IMG/VR virus record: IMGVR_UViG_3300050821_010846
Location: 1 to 38,718 of that record
Strand: one strand, 5' to 3'
Origin: a virus
DNA: 38,718 nucleotides
Part shown: piece after piece, positions 16,529-38,718 of the stretch
Numbering within the stretch: the first letter of the stretch is position 1
How the letters are laid out: each line of letters begins with the position of its first letter
The notes under the pieces: generated by a model
Database searches by the model: none
Told to the model about the DNA's origin: nothing
The model's input: only the letters and a program-made list of their open reading frames with translations
Made by a program: the position numbers and the translations under genes

Positions 16529-16663
16529 ATGATGAATATTATTCTTATTTCAAGTCTAGTTATCTTCCTACCGCTTATGATTATATTAATTCATTATGGC
16601 CCTGACCCAATTATACATTTTATTAAAAAACTCATCAAACTTATTTTGCGTTCAAAAAACTAA
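16529..16663 (+). CDS. Small membrane protein, holin-like candidate
   Basis: 44 residues. One strongly hydrophobic helix (residues 3-22, NIILISSLVIFLPLMIILI), a short polar turn (HYGPDP) and a basic amphipathic end (HFIKKLIKLILRSKN). This is the outline of a pinholin or small class III holin, with positive charges on one side of the membrane. It starts 5 bases after the last tail gene and lies 9 bases before another membrane-protein gene. No lysin neighbour, so function is inferred only from topology. Confidence 0.5.
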   Translation: MMNIILISSLVIFLPLMIILIHYGPDPIIHFIKKLIKLILRSKN

Positions 16664-16671
16664 GAGGAATT

Positions 16672-17085
16672 ATGCAAGCTTTAAACTCAGTATATACTTT
16701 TGTTAAAGAAACAATTACAATGGAAAACTTCTCACGGGCAGCCTATAGCGCTGCAGCATTTTGCACAGGAGCTACCACAGCAGCGTTCGCATACAACAAC
16801 GTGCTCTACAGTGTGCAGATCATCAAAAACTGTGCCCTCCCTATACTCAACGGTACTATGCCTCAAATTCGAACGGATTTGGCAGTAGGAGCGTTTAACA
16901 TAACAGCTGGCTATATTGACCATACCCTACTCAACTTAGGCCATTATGGCTTGATTCTGATAGGAATTTGCGCCACTGGCTACCTAATTGGCAAAGCAAT
17001 TTCGATTATCCAACCGCAAGATGTCCAAAATATCGAAGCCACGCATCGAAGCATCAAAGAAGCTTCACTAGCTTCAAACTCTTAA
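16672..17085 (+). CDS. Membrane protein at the end of the tail operon
   Basis: 137 residues, start preceded by AGAGGA. Two hydrophobic segments are visible: residues about 22-45 (AAYSAAAFCTGATTAAFAY) and 92-112 (YGLILIGICATGYLIGKAI), the second with small-residue spacing typical of packed helices; a hydrophilic tail follows. A role in lysis (holin) or in superinfection exclusion is possible. The stop codon overlaps the convergent stop of the replication gene by 4 bases, so the two large transcription units meet here. Confidence 0.5.
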   Translation: MQALNSVYTFVKETITMENFSRAAYSAAAFCTGATTAAFAYNNVLYSVQIIKNCALPILNGTMPQIRTDLAVGAFNITAGYIDHTLLNLGHYGLILIGICATGYLIGKAISIIQPQDVQNIEATHRSIKEASLASNS

Positions 17086-18050
17086 CGATACTCGCCACCT
17101 ACGGTATCGTTGGCCTCAGTCTGCCCTAACGGACTGGGGCGTTTCTTCTCAGCCTCTTCTCTTTCCAGTTTTTTAATCTGCCAAGCTTTCATGTTGGCTC
17201 TTTCCAAAACTTTTTTCCGTCTTTCGTCTGCTTCTCTTTGAGCCTGCCTATCTTCCTTCGTCGGTTCCTTTGGAGGCTTAATACCAAGTCTTCGCCATCT
17301 TTCCTCTCGCTCTTCACGAGACAGGCATTTTTTAACCGGTGTTTCAGAAACACTCACATAGCGACCTTCAGAGTAAAGTCTTTTACAGATGCTTTTGGTG
17401 TATTTTAAAATATTAGTTATTGGCTTATTACTGTCTATTTCCTCGACGGCTTTCTCTATAACATCTGCTGGAAATTCTTCCAGATGTTTCTTAAGCTCAG
17501 AGATGGTTATTTGCAGGTCTTTACCAGATTTACTCTTGAATTTGACCAATTCCAAAGAGTTTGAAAGACCACCACCACCATTCGGAATGCCGGGAGATTT
17601 CTCAAGATTTTCAGGAATTGGAGGGGTTGGGGGTGGTGGTTTCTTATATATATTATTCCTTAGTTTAGCTTCATTCCTTGGTAGTGTCGACTTCGCCGTA
17701 TACGGGAAAGCCGGTTGCGGAGAAATTATTTTAATTTCATCGGGAACCTGTTGTTTTGTCTCAAAAACAGCGTAGTCGCATCTTGTGAATTTTCCTTTAT
17801 CATCCCTCTTCTGATTTTCCCGTAATATGTATCCGTTTTGAATCCCTTCTTTAATCATAGAAAATATGGCGTCTCTTTTTTCTTTTAAGACAGAAGAGAG
17901 ATGAGAGACTCGAAAAATCCAATCATCGGGTTGAGATAAGCAAAAAGCAAGAAAGCCCTTAAGGCTACATGATATTGATTTGTCATGTAGAAATTGTTTG
18001 TCTAAGACGACATAAGGCTTTTCATGTCGTTGAATTCTAATAACTGACAT
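17082..18050 (-). CDS. Replication-initiator-like protein with N-terminal winged-helix domain
   Basis: 322 residues. N-terminal 90 residues match the HTH module seen in many phage and plasmid replication proteins: YVVLDKQFLHDKSISCSLKG, then FLAFCLSQPDDWIFRVSHLS and an effector-like IFSMIKEGIQNGYILREN. A Pro/Gly linker (KKPPPPTPPIPENL, then NGGGGLS) leads to a helical domain (residues 165-225) and a very basic, charged tail (SREEREERWRRLG, then EREEAEKKR). This two-domain plan suggests origin binding plus recruitment of host helicase. Start supported by AGGAGATT upstream. Upstream lie two near-copies of its own start region. No polymerase or helicase is in the window, consistent with dependence on the host replisome. 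Confidence 0.6.
   Translation of the reverse strand: MSVIRIQRHEKPYVVLDKQFLHDKSISCSLKGFLAFCLSQPDDWIFRVSHLSSVLKEKRDAIFSMIKEGIQNGYILRENQKRDDKGKFTRCDYAVFETKQQVPDEIKIISPQPAFPYTAKSTLPRNEAKLRNNIYKKPPPPTPPIPENLEKSPGIPNGGGGLSNSLELVKFKSKSGKDLQITISELKKHLEEFPADVIEKAVEEIDSNKPITNILKYTKSICKRLYSEGRYVSVSETPVKKCLSREEREERWRRLGIKPPKEPTKEDRQAQREADERRKKVLERANMKAWQIKKLEREEAEKKRPSPLGQTEANDTVGGEYR
17084..17111. repeat. Inverted repeat at the convergent gene ends
   Basis: AACGATAC (17084-17091) and GTATCGTT (17104-17111) pair over 8 bp with a 12-base loop, beginning exactly at the overlapping stop codons. Probably an RNA 3'-end hairpin that acts with the adjacent terminator. Confidence 0.5.
17113..17150 (+). terminator. 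Terminator of the plus-strand tail operon
   Basis: Nine-bp stem GCCTCAGTC/GACTGGGGC (one T-G pair; 17113-17121 with 17132-17140) with a 10-base loop, followed by GTTTCTTCTC. It lies inside the 3' end of the opposing replication gene, so the terminator is also coding sequence on the other strand. Confidence 0.6.
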
Positions 18051-18174
18051 AATCTCCTGTTGTGTAAAAAGGAAGCATTATGCCAAACTGATAACAGACA
18101 TGATGTTTCCTTGGTTTTTGAACTCACATAACTGGTTTTAAAACCGACATAATTTCCTGTTGTGTAAAAAGAAA
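18046..18174 (-). repeat. Direct repeat of the translation-start region, exactly 100 bp apart
   Basis: Bases 18046-18074 and 18146-18174 are near-identical over about 27 bases; each contains, on the minus strand, TTTTTACACAACAGGA.ATTATGTC. The first is the real start of the replication gene; the second starts a short peptide. The 100-base period is exact (both ATGs at positions ending in 50). Confidence 0.75.
18078..18150 (-). promoter_or_regulatory. Two upstream leader peptides of the replication gene
   Basis: Minus strand: 18150-18124 encodes MSVLKPVM-stop, 18101-18078 encodes MSVISLA-stop, and the gene itself starts MSVIRIQR at 18050. All three starts are ATGTC.GTT and follow a purine-rich site (ACAGGA, AAGGA, CAGGAG). 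This looks like a triplicated translation-initiation region giving small upstream reading frames that could attenuate or time synthesis of the replication protein. Confidence 0.55.
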
Positions 18175-21970: not shown

Positions 21971-22406
21971 AAAAGACGGCACCCATGCTCCAGGAACAAA
22001 TCAAGGCGGAGCACCAACTAAATATACCGAGGAATGGATTGAAGAAGAAGCAAGAAGATTGCTTGATTGGATCGCTAATGATACCCCTGATAAAATCTAT
22101 ATAGGTTCTTTTGCAAGATATCGAGGTTATGACCGTGCTCGTCTCTCAGAATTTGCTCGTTCAAATTCCAACTTTGCGCGCGCTATGCGTCAAGCACAGG
22201 CCTGGCAAGAAGAAAAGTTCCTCCGTAATGCCCTGTCGAAGGAGTGGGATGCGGCGCAAGTACGCTACACTATGGCTAGAGTGTGTTCTCCGGAATGGAA
22301 AGCATCTTGGGATAAAGAAGAAAAAGAAGAAGCTCCTCCTCAAATAATTCAACATGTTGTAAGATATGCGGATATCCCTAAAGAATCCCATGCCAAAGCT
22401 GATTGA
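21957..22406 (+). CDS. terS: Terminase small subunit
   Basis: 149 residues, close to the 162 of P22 gp3. N-terminus basic and Gly-rich (ARPRKDGTHAPGTNQGGAPT), then a helical DNA-binding region (EEEARRLLDWIANDTPDKIY, then FARYRGYDRARLSEFARSN) and a long helix (AMRQAQAWQEEKFLRNALS) typical of the oligomerisation core, ending in a charged tail. Immediately followed by a homing-type endonuclease and the large subunit, the expected pairing. It would recognise pac DNA and stimulate the large subunit. Assignment from layout and neighbours. Confidence 0.7.
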   Translation: MARPRKDGTHAPGTNQGGAPTKYTEEWIEEEARRLLDWIANDTPDKIYIGSFARYRGYDRARLSEFARSNSNFARAMRQAQAWQEEKFLRNALSKEWDAAQVRYTMARVCSPEWKASWDKEEKEEAPPQIIQHVVRYADIPKESHAKAD

Positions 22407-22941
22407 TCTTACAGGACAAAAATTCGAAAGACTAACCGTAATTGAAAGAATAGGCCGATTTTCCAATAAGACACTATGGAAATGCCTATGCTCATGCGGA
22501 AAAATTACTACTCCTAATTCATATGATCTTAGATCCGGGAAAACGCTAAGTTGCGGCTGCTTCCACAAGGAAAAAGTAAAAAATCAAGCTTCTTCCGGAA
22601 TATATGGATGGAAAAAGAAGAATGACTATAGAAAAGTTCATGGCATGACTAAGCACAAGCTGTACTATATTTATAGAGGAATACATGACCGCTGTTATAG
22701 AGAGAAGTGCAAAGACTTCAAGTTCTATGGAGCAAAGGGAATAAAGTTGTGTGAGGAATGGAAAAAAGATTTCATGAAATTCTACCAATGGTCTATGGAT
22801 TCCGGATGGAAAGAGGGCCTTACAATTGATAGAATAAAAAACACTGGTGATTATGAACCATCAAATTGTCAATGGTCTACAAGGTCAGAAAATTCAAGAA
22901 GGCAAGGGAAAAGTTTTAATTCTTCCAGAGCTTCCCCATAA
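22390..22941 (+). CDS. HNH homing endonuclease lodged between terS and terL
   Basis: 183 residues from ATG 22390 (MPKLIDLTGQKFERLTVIER), the standard start of this phage endonuclease group. Zinc-ribbon-like Cys pattern in residues 32-60 (WKCLCSCGKI, then LSCGCFHK). The C-terminal nuclease block is GLTIDRIKNTGDYEPSNCQ followed by WSTRSENSRRQ, where D.I.N.G.YEP.NC.W is the diagnostic HNH pattern. The gene overlaps terS by 17 bases and runs 89 bases past the terL ATG used here, so it is a compact insertion into a packaging operon. Composition is more AT-rich than the flanks. Such free-standing endonucleases copy themselves into homologous loci lacking them. Confidence 0.8.
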   Translation: MPKLIDLTGQKFERLTVIERIGRFSNKTLWKCLCSCGKITTPNSYDLRSGKTLSCGCFHKEKVKNQASSGIYGWKKKNDYRKVHGMTKHKLYYIYRGIHDRCYREKCKDFKFYGAKGIKLCEEWKKDFMKFYQWSMDSGWKEGLTIDRIKNTGDYEPSNCQWSTRSENSRRQGKSFNSSRASP

Positions 22942-36703: not shown

Positions 36704-36902
36704 ATGGCAATTACAACATTAACCCAATTGCCTCCAGAGGTGCGAACATATTTCGATAGAATGTTGCTTACGCTCGCAAGACCGTACTTCATCTACGACC
36801 TGTTCGCACAGAAGAGGCAGATCCCGCTCAACAGTGGTGATCAGATGGTTTTTCGCCGCTACGGGACGCTCTCAGCAGCGACAATACCGCTCACAGATGG
36901 GC
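36704..36902 (+). CDS. Major capsid protein, exon 1
   Basis: First 66 residues plus one base: ITTLTQLPPEVRTYFDRMLL, KRQIPLNSGDQMVFRRYGTL, then IPLTDG. This is the N-terminus of the N4-gp56/P22-coat type capsid family. The exon stops after C36902, where AGATGGGC (36895-36902) pairs with ACCCATCT (36914-36921) as P1 of a group I intron, with a C-A pair at the splice site. Joining to 38053 gives codon CAA and the family-typical LTDG-QTPSGDQLSVTD. Read through without splicing, the frame ends at 36961. Confidence 0.8.
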
Positions 36903-37064
36903 AAGGATGCATTACCCATCTAAAATCAGACCTGATTGACTTGGAACTCCTGGCTGCTTAACCTGCAGAGGACGACAAGGCGGAACCCGCAAGGGACCGT
37001 GACAGACTAAGGCGGTTAGACATCTATTTAAAGTAAATAGATGAAGCGATAGTCGAATCTGCAG

Positions 37065-38000
37065 CTATATAGATGAAACTGCAGAGGTGGCAGAAATGAC
37101 CACCCGCTTAGCAGAAGAACCTTTTGAGTTTAGAATATGGATATCAGAAAGCAAAGATTCTCGAAGTTTATGGATAGTGTCCAAATCCTGTCTAAAGGAT
37201 TTGAGACGGCTATATCCTCTTGGGAGCATTGTTTTTTTGAATTCCAGAATCTTTTCACAAACAGCTCTTTTGGTTTGAATAAATGGAAGTATATTTTTGA
37301 TTATGTTGAAAGAATCGGTAGAATTTATGGTGAGCTGAATCTGGTTCCGATCATTAGGATTTTTAGAAGATTTGTCTCTAAAAGAGGCACTTCCTTGGAA
37401 TCTTTCCATGATCCAAACTGGAACAATCGGACAAACTGCACCCATGGAAACTCTAATTTTATAAGAAGGAAAATCTCTATCCTTTTTCATGAATTTAGAA
37501 ATTCCTATGGAGCATTCTGCATCGATATAACCAGCGAGATAAGAAAAATCTTCTTCAGAGCACGACTTTTTTTCACGAATAGACCTTATATACGTGATAT
37601 GATCCAAAGTTGTGACCAGAATATTTTCTCTAGCTTTTTTAAATTCCTCCAACAAAGTCTCGCCAAAATCTATGAAGTCACAAGAGAGAAAATCTATAAA
37701 AATCTTGCATTCAGATTCTTTTTCCTTTACATAAGGAAAAATACTTTTTGCAACATCGAGAGCAGGTTTTCCTCTTATAGACCAAATATATTGATTAGCC
37801 CAATTAGCATTTTTTGGCATGTTCACTCTAATGTGTCCACCAAAAGTTTGTTGAAAGGATTTGATAATATCTTCCTTTGTAGAACAAATCGATATGGATC
37901 CCTCTCTAAAAGGATATCCTCGTGTATTAAATCTTTTTCTTATAGAAAAATGGCCATCTCCATCGATATAGCCAGCCAAATAGGAATAATTTATAGTCAT
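37065..38000 (-). CDS. LAGLIDADG homing endonuclease, antisense inside intron 1
   Basis: 311 residues with two LAGLIDADG helices: YLAGYIDGDGHFSIRK near residue 7 and YLAGYIDAECSIGISK near residue 155, each followed by the expected alpha-beta-beta pattern. Both catalytic acids are kept (D in GDG, E in AEC), so it is a monomeric two-domain enzyme likely active. It is encoded opposite to the coat gene, so it needs its own transcript. No Shine-Dalgarno site precedes the ATG; a possible promoter is at 38008-38037. It should cleave intron-less coat genes and drive intron spread. Confidence 0.85.
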   Translation of the reverse strand: MTINYSYLAGYIDGDGHFSIRKRFNTRGYPFREGSISICSTKEDIIKSFQQTFGGHIRVNMPKNANWANQYIWSIRGKPALDVAKSIFPYVKEKESECKIFIDFLSCDFIDFGETLLEEFKKARENILVTTLDHITYIRSIREKKSCSEEDFSYLAGYIDAECSIGISKFMKKDRDFPSYKIRVSMGAVCPIVPVWIMERFQGSASFRDKSSKNPNDRNQIQLTINSTDSFNIIKNILPFIQTKRAVCEKILEFKKTMLPRGYSRLKSFRQDLDTIHKLRESLLSDIHILNSKGSSAKRVVISATSAVSSI

Positions 38001-38007
38001 GATGTAT

Positions 38008-38037
38008 ATTTTAGACCATCCGTCATTTCTAAGTCAA
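38008..38037 (-). promoter_or_regulatory. Possible promoter for the antisense endonuclease (weak)
   Basis: Minus strand TTGACT (38032-38037), 18-base spacer, TAAAAT (38008-38013). Transcription would begin at about the ATG at 38000, giving an almost leaderless message, which would fit the missing ribosome site. Confidence 0.35.
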
Positions 38038-38052
38038 CAAGTAATAGCAATG

Positions 38053-38165
38053 AAACTCCATCCGGAGATCAACTTTCAGTAACAGATTTCAAGGCCGCGA
38101 TTTCTTGGTACGGTTCGTACGTCACGATTACCGATCAAGTGCAGTTCGTGGTACAAGACAGGGTT
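38053..38165 (+). CDS. Major capsid protein, exon 2
   Basis: 113 bases coding TPSGDQLSVTDFKAAISWYG, then SYVTITDQVQFVVQDRV. The QLSVTD and YVTITDQV blocks are typical of the family just after the N-terminal arm. Exon ends after T38165: ACAGGGTT (38158-38165) pairs completely with GGCCCTGT (38174-38181) with the standard U-G pair at the splice site. Exon lengths 199 and 113 sum to 312, a multiple of three, so exon 3 starts on a codon boundary. Confidence 0.8.
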
Positions 38166-38525
38166 AACATAAAGGCCCTGTATAAATCGGATCTAATTGA
38201 CTTGGAACTCCTGGCAGCGTAGGGAATATGGAAGGAGAAATAAATTTAGATTTAGAAGAGAAAGCAAAGCCTATTCTGGAAAAAATGAGGCTCTGTAAAG
38301 ACTACAATATTTACAGAAAACTTGCTGATGAACTTCTGGGTTTAGTTGAATCTCCTACAACTGTAAAGGACAACAAGGGCGAACCCGAAAGGGACGCTGA
38401 ACGACTTAACGATCTGATCTCGAAAGAGAATGCGAAAGTCTGACCTCACAGGTAACTGTGAGAGGGAAATCCGAAGAGTTTTCCCCGCCTAATAATTGGG
38501 TCAAAGCCTAATTAATTAGGTCATG
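38166..38525 (+). ncRNA. Group I intron 2 in the capsid gene (360 bases, no endonuclease)
   Basis: Same 20-base block as intron 1 (38196-38215), a GGACAACAAGGGCGAACCCG segment near 38369, an R-like element GCTGAACGACTTAACG near 38397, an S-like AAAGTCTGACC near 38435, and a terminal GTCATG ending in G38525. Compared with intron 1 it has about 120 extra bases between the conserved block and the Q segment, which contain an open frame. Splicing joins QDRV to KVTDSLNEA, matching the family's DPVLNEA region. Confidence 0.8.
38228..38443 (+). CDS. Possible intron-2 encoded 71-residue protein (weak)
   Basis: EGEINLDLEEKAKPILEKMR, YNIYRKLADELLGLVESPTT, then ERDAERLNDLISKENAK: charged, helical. AGGGA lies just before the ATG but too close. 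The second half overlaps the intron's catalytic core, which limits its evolution as a protein. It could be real or an accident of a purine-rich insertion. Confidence 0.25.
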   Translation: MEGEINLDLEEKAKPILEKMRLCKDYNIYRKLADELLGLVESPTTVKDNKGEPERDAERLNDLISKENAKV

Positions 38526-38718
38526 AAAGTAACAGATAGCTTAAATGAAGCGACAAAAGTATTGTCACTGCAGCTCGGTCTTACTATTGATACGCTCATA
38601 CGCGATATGATGGTATCGACTGCTAGCACAATTGTGTGCAGCCATGGTAACAACGGTAATACACCGACCGAAATCAACGACCAGGACATCCAGACGGCTG
38701 TCATTGCGTTGAGACAAG
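38526..38718 (+). CDS. Major capsid protein, exon 3 (partial, runs off the right end)
   Basis: 64 residues plus one base: KVTDSLNEATKVLSLQLGLT, IDTLIRDMMVSTASTIVCSH, then GNTPTEINDQDIQTAVIALR. The D.LIRDM..STAS and NPTEI/TPTEI blocks are characteristic of this capsid family. The gene continues, after a short missing piece, at bases 1-387. Confidence 0.85.

Follow-up and report, generated by a model that had tools for sequence, protein, structure and literature searches.

Bacterial ribosomes trail RNA polymerase closely, and for this reason introns in the protein genes of bacteria and their phages should give rise to truncated proteins. Truncated coat proteins could poison assembly, and it has long been asked how such genes can retain introns. 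Bacteria mark failed proteins for destruction with the ssrA (tmRNA) tag, which ends in Ala-Ala. Within the ssrA degron, the Ala-Ala carboxylate matters most to ClpXP, and the same ending is found in other degrons (PMC7652416). Most group I introns carry a stop codon just past the 5′ splice site, which blocks ribosome entry (PMC3073962). In mycobacteriophages Baka and LittleE, splicing of the introns has been proven by RT-PCR (PMC3706429).

Here we describe a 38,718-nucleotide (38.7 kb) virus record, hereafter the window, whose capsid gene carries two introns with an in-frame Ala-Ala tail. Over a hundred related phage introns possess the same tail, which suggests that unspliced messages yield proteins pre-labelled for disposal.

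Results

Coat gene and splice junctions

The capsid gene is split across both contig ends and lies on the plus strand. Exon 1 (36704–36902, 199 nt), intron 1 (36903–38052, 1150 nt, insertion phase 1), exon 2 (38053–38164, 112 nt) and intron 2 (38165–38539, 375 nt, insertion phase 2) are followed by the first part of exon 3 (38540–38718), which runs off the window end. The C-terminal part of exon 3 occupies positions 1–387, as placed by alignment to relatives, and in comparison with these about 22 capsid codons are absent between 38718 and 1. In locus L279, exon 3 and the capsid C-terminus form one open frame.

Querying IMG/VR with the window capsid C-terminus alone yielded 79 loci, in many of which the gene is a single open frame of about 313 codons. 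These intronless relatives, together with a family covariance model, uphold the preliminary description of the gene as interrupted by two group I introns. The join proposed for intron 1 (36902 to 38053, LTDG-QTPSGD) is exact when aligned with the intronless capsid of L288, and the size of exon 1 stands. For intron 2, the proposed join of 38165 to 38526 was off by 1 and 14 bases: alignment with intronless relatives places it at 38164 to 38540, so that exon 2 measures 112 rather than 113 nt. The residues KVTDS in the reading QDRV-KVTDSLNEA, first given across this junction, do not occur in intronless capsids, which read QDRV-LNEA. Frame restoration, claimed to be exact for both introns, holds as first joined for intron 1 and, once the junction is corrected, for intron 2 as well. 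With the corrected joins, the predicted spliced capsid is 86% identical to that of L288, with zero extra residues at either junction. The sequence AAAGTAACAGATAG is the conserved 3′ end of the introns and precedes exons in many relatives.

Two introns in one coat gene had been considered unusual; in this phage group, however, coat genes with two or more are common (L103, L108, L295, L316, L337, L352). On a 39.8-kb contig from a Parachlamydia metagenome-assembled genome (L123, 3581–6380), about ten covariance-model matches fall within 2.8 kb, and the coat gene is apparently broken by many introns.

Group I identity and relationship of the two introns

The P1 pairings, the R/S (P7) elements and the terminal G first noted in both introns are all borne out in the sequence. 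P1 of intron 1 (36895–36921) pairs 36895–36902 with 36914–36921; the atypical C·A pair at its 5′ splice site is present, C36902 facing A36914 in place of U·G. P1 of intron 2 (38158–38181) pairs 38158–38164 with 38175–38181 and has U38164·G38175 at the splice site. The terminal G residues are G38052 and G38539. The catalytic core of intron 1 (36926–37054), defined by covariance-model alignment and family covariation, comprises P3 (36926–36932/37014–37020), P4 (CTTG 36940–36943/CAAG 36976–36979), P5 (36948–36950/36970–36972) and P7 (37005–37009/37050–37054). That of intron 2 (38186–38440), defined by sequence and covariance-model alignment, comprises P3 (38186–38193/38411–38418) and P7 (38403–38407/38436–38440), with an insertion of about 150 nt in the P5 loop.

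A covariance model, R1, was built from a family alignment of 50 related intron cores. In this alignment P3, P4, P5, P6, P7 and P8 consist of standard pairs at 98.8%, two-sided base changes fill 254 cells as against 66 in shuffles, and the covariation score is 0.514 as compared with 0.158 in shuffles, the signal being lost when the partner is slid by one column. R1 matched intron 1 at 36922–37060 (E=2.6e-17) and intron 2 at 38331–38446 (E=3.7e-14), with no other significant match in the window. A search with the Rfam model Intron_gpI (RF00028), which the preliminary description had offered as a check, stayed below threshold, intron 2 scoring 16.9 of the 50 bits required (E=0.26) and intron 1 giving no match. 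That score serves recognition and does not define the class; since the RT-PCR-proven introns of Baka and LittleE likewise fall under the RF00028 gathering score, the miss reflects a limit of sensitivity. From their sequence and predicted fold, we conclude that the window introns are group I introns, predicted to be self-splicing.

The 20-base block shared by the two introns, from which a duplication of one intron inside the gene had been suggested, is present, but it corresponds to the P3-J3/4-P4-P5 core, which all members of the intron family share. The evidence does not support intragenic copying: the two cores are 67% identical, ranking 18 and 10 among relatives, and same-site introns of different phages resemble each other more. 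The 5′ end of intron 2 has its closest match in L118, a different phage whose intron occupies the same site. Judged by sequence relationship, the two introns are not sisters or copies of each other.

Open reading frames and endonucleases

Intron 1 contains, in antisense orientation, a 311-aa LAGLIDADG homing endonuclease gene (37065–38000, minus strand; Pfam PF00961, E=2.6e-11) with two motifs, YLAGYIDGDG and YLAGYIDAEC, and weak matches to I-CvuI, I-MsoI and I-CreI. The P5 loop of intron 2 contains a 71-aa ORF (38228–38443, plus strand) that runs on through the catalytic core and matched no family above its cut-off. Short P6-loop ORFs are found in L016, L017, L026, L033, L037 and other related introns, starting about 21–30 nt past the stop codon of the tail described below; several are rich in CxxC pairs (zinc-ribbon-like), and they read through P6′-P7 as QPERL. 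The core sequence CAAGGGG is a possible Shine-Dalgarno site for them. Elsewhere in the window, an HNH endonuclease ORF (22366–22941; phrog_374, E=9e-60) lies between the small and large terminase genes, overlapping both, and is probably a free-standing homing endonuclease.

An in-frame Ala-Ala tail in both introns

Neither intron interrupts the coat frame with a stop in P1, P3 or P4; in both, the first stop lies in the P5 loop, where the reading ends KSDLIDLELLAA-stop. In intron 1 the extension (36903–36961, plus strand) reads (Q)GCITHLKSDLIDLELLAA-stop, with the Ala codons at 36953–36958 and TAA at 36959–36961. In intron 2 it reads (V)NIKALYKSDLIDLELLAA-stop (38165–38222, plus strand), with TAG at 38220–38222. 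The shared core block thus doubles as a protein reading that ends LAA-stop, which was overlooked in the first reading of the sequence. Over a 39-nt block including the stop codon, the two introns differ at 6 positions, all 6 synonymous. As in ssrA-type degrons, for which Leu-Ala-Ala is best, Ala-Ala would stand at the free carboxylate. The window itself contains no tmRNA gene from which such a tag could have come, and a codon-degenerate scan of bacterial genomes for an origin in host tmRNA returned phage introns and chance matches, with no tmRNA carrying IDLELLAA.

Frame and phase of the tail in related introns

A codon-degenerate search of IMG/VR for IDLE[LF]LAA-stop returned 117 stretches as compared with about 2 that we had estimated; almost every one is the 5′ end of an intron within a capsid, portal or other gene. 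This search selects for the tag itself, and the frame and end counts were therefore taken from other sets, in which shared ancestry makes the introns less independent than they look. Among the introns at loci fetched by capsid homology alone, the exon frame ends in Ala-Ala-stop in 20 of 21 and in Val-Ala in the remaining one; these introns occupy 13 site/phase positions and have 20 distinct 12-residue ends. A search by RNA motif only, with the pattern ATTGACTTGGAACTCC and evaluated on the listed loci, gave 33 introns in which the motif is entered in the exon frame; 28 of these end in Ala-Ala and 5 in Val-Ala or Thr-Ala. Among the 28 are L145 and L235, where the frame continues across the core as far as CAA and IAA.

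The program that called junctions misplaced some splice sites in divergent capsids, and the frame test was for this reason limited to 26 confident junctions (9, 6 and 11 in phases 0, 1 and 2). Ala-Ala ends the exon frame in 26 of 26, as against 1 of 52 for the other two frames. The stop lies 54, 57 or 63 nt from the splice site in phase 0, 56 or 59 nt in phase 1 and 55, 58 or 61 nt in phase 2; this spacing tracks the insertion phase, which argues that the intron 5′ end is adjusted so as to keep the tag in frame. The junctions come in part from tag-selected loci, but both the phase relation and the other-frame control are independent of that choice. The Ala codons vary at third positions with positions 1 and 2 fixed, all three stop codons are used, and indels in the P5 loop preserve the frame, as in LEAA, LDAA, LAMAA and LIAA. 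Since the core is constrained as RNA and reads IDLEL in one frame, the evidence here is confined to the Ala-Ala end, the frame and the open 5′ stretch; these sequence features strongly support selection on the peptide end.

Other routes to Ala-Ala and other endings

In other introns of the family the Ala-Ala end lies at P6′ (EAQALIAA, AEDEYLLAA, AEMLLAA) or a short way past P1 (EQQELRLAA, KLEPHVALAA). In P22-type coat genes, same-family introns have the tails YAANDSSFAKVA, VANDSSFALVA, VANDEKFALVA and NDCGYLQAA, and further members read ASNDAVFALAA and ASNDELFALVA. Several of these tails, such as AANDSSFAKVA, VANDEKFALVA and ASNDAVFALAA, mimic the tmRNA tag and resemble the E. coli ssrA tag AANDENYALAA. 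In MW202674.1 a P22 coat protein is annotated as split (16569–16871, UOF80249.1, and 17089–18084, UOF80250.1), and the first piece ends DAYFLLAA, within an unrecognised intron. A tape-measure intron of a B. subtilis SPbeta-type phage ends ASVIAA, phi3T being without the intron. In a separate intron family, Baka reads LSDDLAAAAA and LittleE WNSVATAAA, both in exon frame; these near-identical introns lie in two genes at insertion phases 0 and 1, and the frame is kept in both.

The exon frame of the T4 td and nrdB introns stops at the splice site and that of SPO1 gp31 ends NIAC near it, in none of the three with Ala-Ala, in keeping with the stop that most group I introns carry just past the junction (PMC3073962). 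Some members of the window RNA family end in VVR, VILN or LH. A recurrent -[LV]H end, seen in several coat genes, was observed in related introns ending in VTLH, GLLH, GLVH, GLIH, GFLH or GYVH rather than Ala-Ala (L137, L140, L141, L142, L147, L160, L162, L198, L199, L239, L248, L257, L270, L274). The Ala-Ala tag is thus common in the window intron family and is not universal among introns.

Discussion

These observations make it probable that the introns encode ssrA-like degrons that send the products of unspliced mRNA to ClpXP. A ribosome translating the mRNA ahead of splicing would enter the intron in frame, pass through P1, P3, J3/4 and P4, and terminate in the P5 loop, by which point the protein would have gained about 19 residues ending in Leu-Ala-Ala. 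As Ala-Ala-COO⁻ is the key element of ssrA for ClpXP, recognition of this end would lead to destruction of the truncated coat protein, and capsid assembly would not be poisoned; splicing would remove the tag along with the intron. We infer translation of the tag in cells, degradation of the tailed product by ClpXP or another tail-reading protease, and a selective benefit from clearing truncated coat protein. The wider proposal, which we favour with less assurance, is that such host-readable degrons arose repeatedly at the 5′ ends of phage group I introns in more than one intron family, close mimics of the whole tag (AANDSSFAKVA, VANDEKFALVA) included, and form a cis-encoded quality control that clears the products of unspliced messages and makes introns in assembly-critical genes less costly. 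In the open-access full texts searched we found no earlier report linking group I introns to encoded degrons; one may exist elsewhere.

Alternatively, the stop codon in the P5 loop may be placed for translational coupling, so that ribosomes re-initiate at an intron ORF encoding a homing endonuclease or a small zinc-ribbon protein, with AAGGGG of the core as Shine-Dalgarno sequence. An ORF of at least 60 aa begins within 80 nt of the tag stop in 68 of 141 tag introns, often 21–30 nt downstream and directly after CAAGGGG, and in intron 2 of the window the ATG of the 71-aa ORF follows the tag stop by 5 nt, making re-initiation on unspliced mRNA possible. However, half of the tag introns have no such ORF, and coupling explains neither Ala-Ala nor the tags that end upstream or downstream of the usual place in the P5 loop. 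As a substitute for the degron we regard coupling as very unlikely, although it may operate as a compatible extra alongside it.

It is most unlikely, in our opinion, that the block is kept as RNA only, that is, as ribozyme P3-P5, with Ala-Ala a coincidence of the P5-loop hairpin GCNGC...GCAGC. Such a reading would account for the strong covariation in P3-P8 and for the retention of the motif CUGAUUGACUUGGAACUCC...GGACAACAAGG in introns that lack an in-frame reading of it. Yet same-family introns whose exon frame falls short of the motif have a short P5 loop that lacks the GCNGCNTAR hairpin, which implies that IDLEL derives from the RNA core and that Ala-Ala-stop is an addition made where the frame enters. 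Moreover, the Ala codons of the hairpin vary at third positions only and lie in the exon frame in all insertion phases, and introns using P6′ or the stretch just past P1, like those of an unrelated family, also attain Ala-Ala. It is the frame and its compensation for phase that disfavour an explanation by RNA alone.

The stop might also be positioned for the control of splicing, the ribosome being admitted as far as P5 so as to time folding and splicing, with the peptide irrelevant. Ribosome entry into group I introns does affect splicing, as reviewed in PMC3073962, but the Ala-Ala end stays constant over stop distances of 27 to 90 nt, and we consider this account extremely improbable. We give almost no credence to a functional short isoform, which the open frame and conserved tail might suggest, as exon length varies between tens and hundreds of codons across many sites in several genes and the end alone is common to the products.

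The degron explanation would provide a simple answer to the persistence of introns in assembly-critical genes. It leads to clear predictions for SPbeta-type Bacillus phages and for mycobacteriophages Baka and LittleE, and explains a deposited genome in which a split coat gene ends LLAA (MW202674). The in-frame tails also qualify the view that an intron merely halts translation at the splice site, and they offer a search rule for phage introns missed by Rfam.

As to the host, the tmRNA tags of Chlamydiota, a possible host group, end in Ala-Ala in 17 of the 17 that were read and have very different interiors; they thus show the same pattern as the introns, a fixed Ala-Ala end with a variable interior. 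Capsid relatives were found in 9 of 234 Chlamydiota genomes, the best at 51%. Contigs with the tag are present in bins of Bacteroidales and Methanomicrobiales too, so that the host need not be a member of the Chlamydiota.

With respect to known systems, the window introns share with phage group I introns such as T4 td, nrdB and nrdD, SPO1 gp31 and those of Twort and the Bastillevirinae the wobble pair of P1, the P3-P8 core, the terminal G and homing endonuclease ORFs in loops. Unlike T4 td, T4 nrdB and SPO1 gp31, however, their exon frame crosses half the core to an Ala-Ala end. They resemble the cluster J mycobacteriophage introns (LittleE capsid, Baka tail; PMC3706429) in residing in structural genes and in their in-frame AAA-stop ends, and the antisense LAGLIDADG-like ORF described for the LittleE capsid intron (PMC3706429) has the same arrangement as that of window intron 1; yet they belong to a different intron family and come from different hosts. 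The in-frame tail of LittleE and Baka was found in the present analysis and is not mentioned in the passages of PMC3706429 consulted.

A failed product that receives a C-terminal Ala-Ala recalls tmRNA/ssrA trans-translation and the other C-terminal Ala-Ala degrons of ClpXP substrates. Contrary to tmRNA tagging, the intron tag would be encoded in cis by the retained intron and would require neither a stalled ribosome nor tmRNA. In purpose only, the proposed mechanism resembles the eukaryotic quality control of intron-retained mRNAs, where the products of unspliced messages are likewise removed; the phage introns, in contrast, would act not on the mRNA but on the protein, through an encoded tail.
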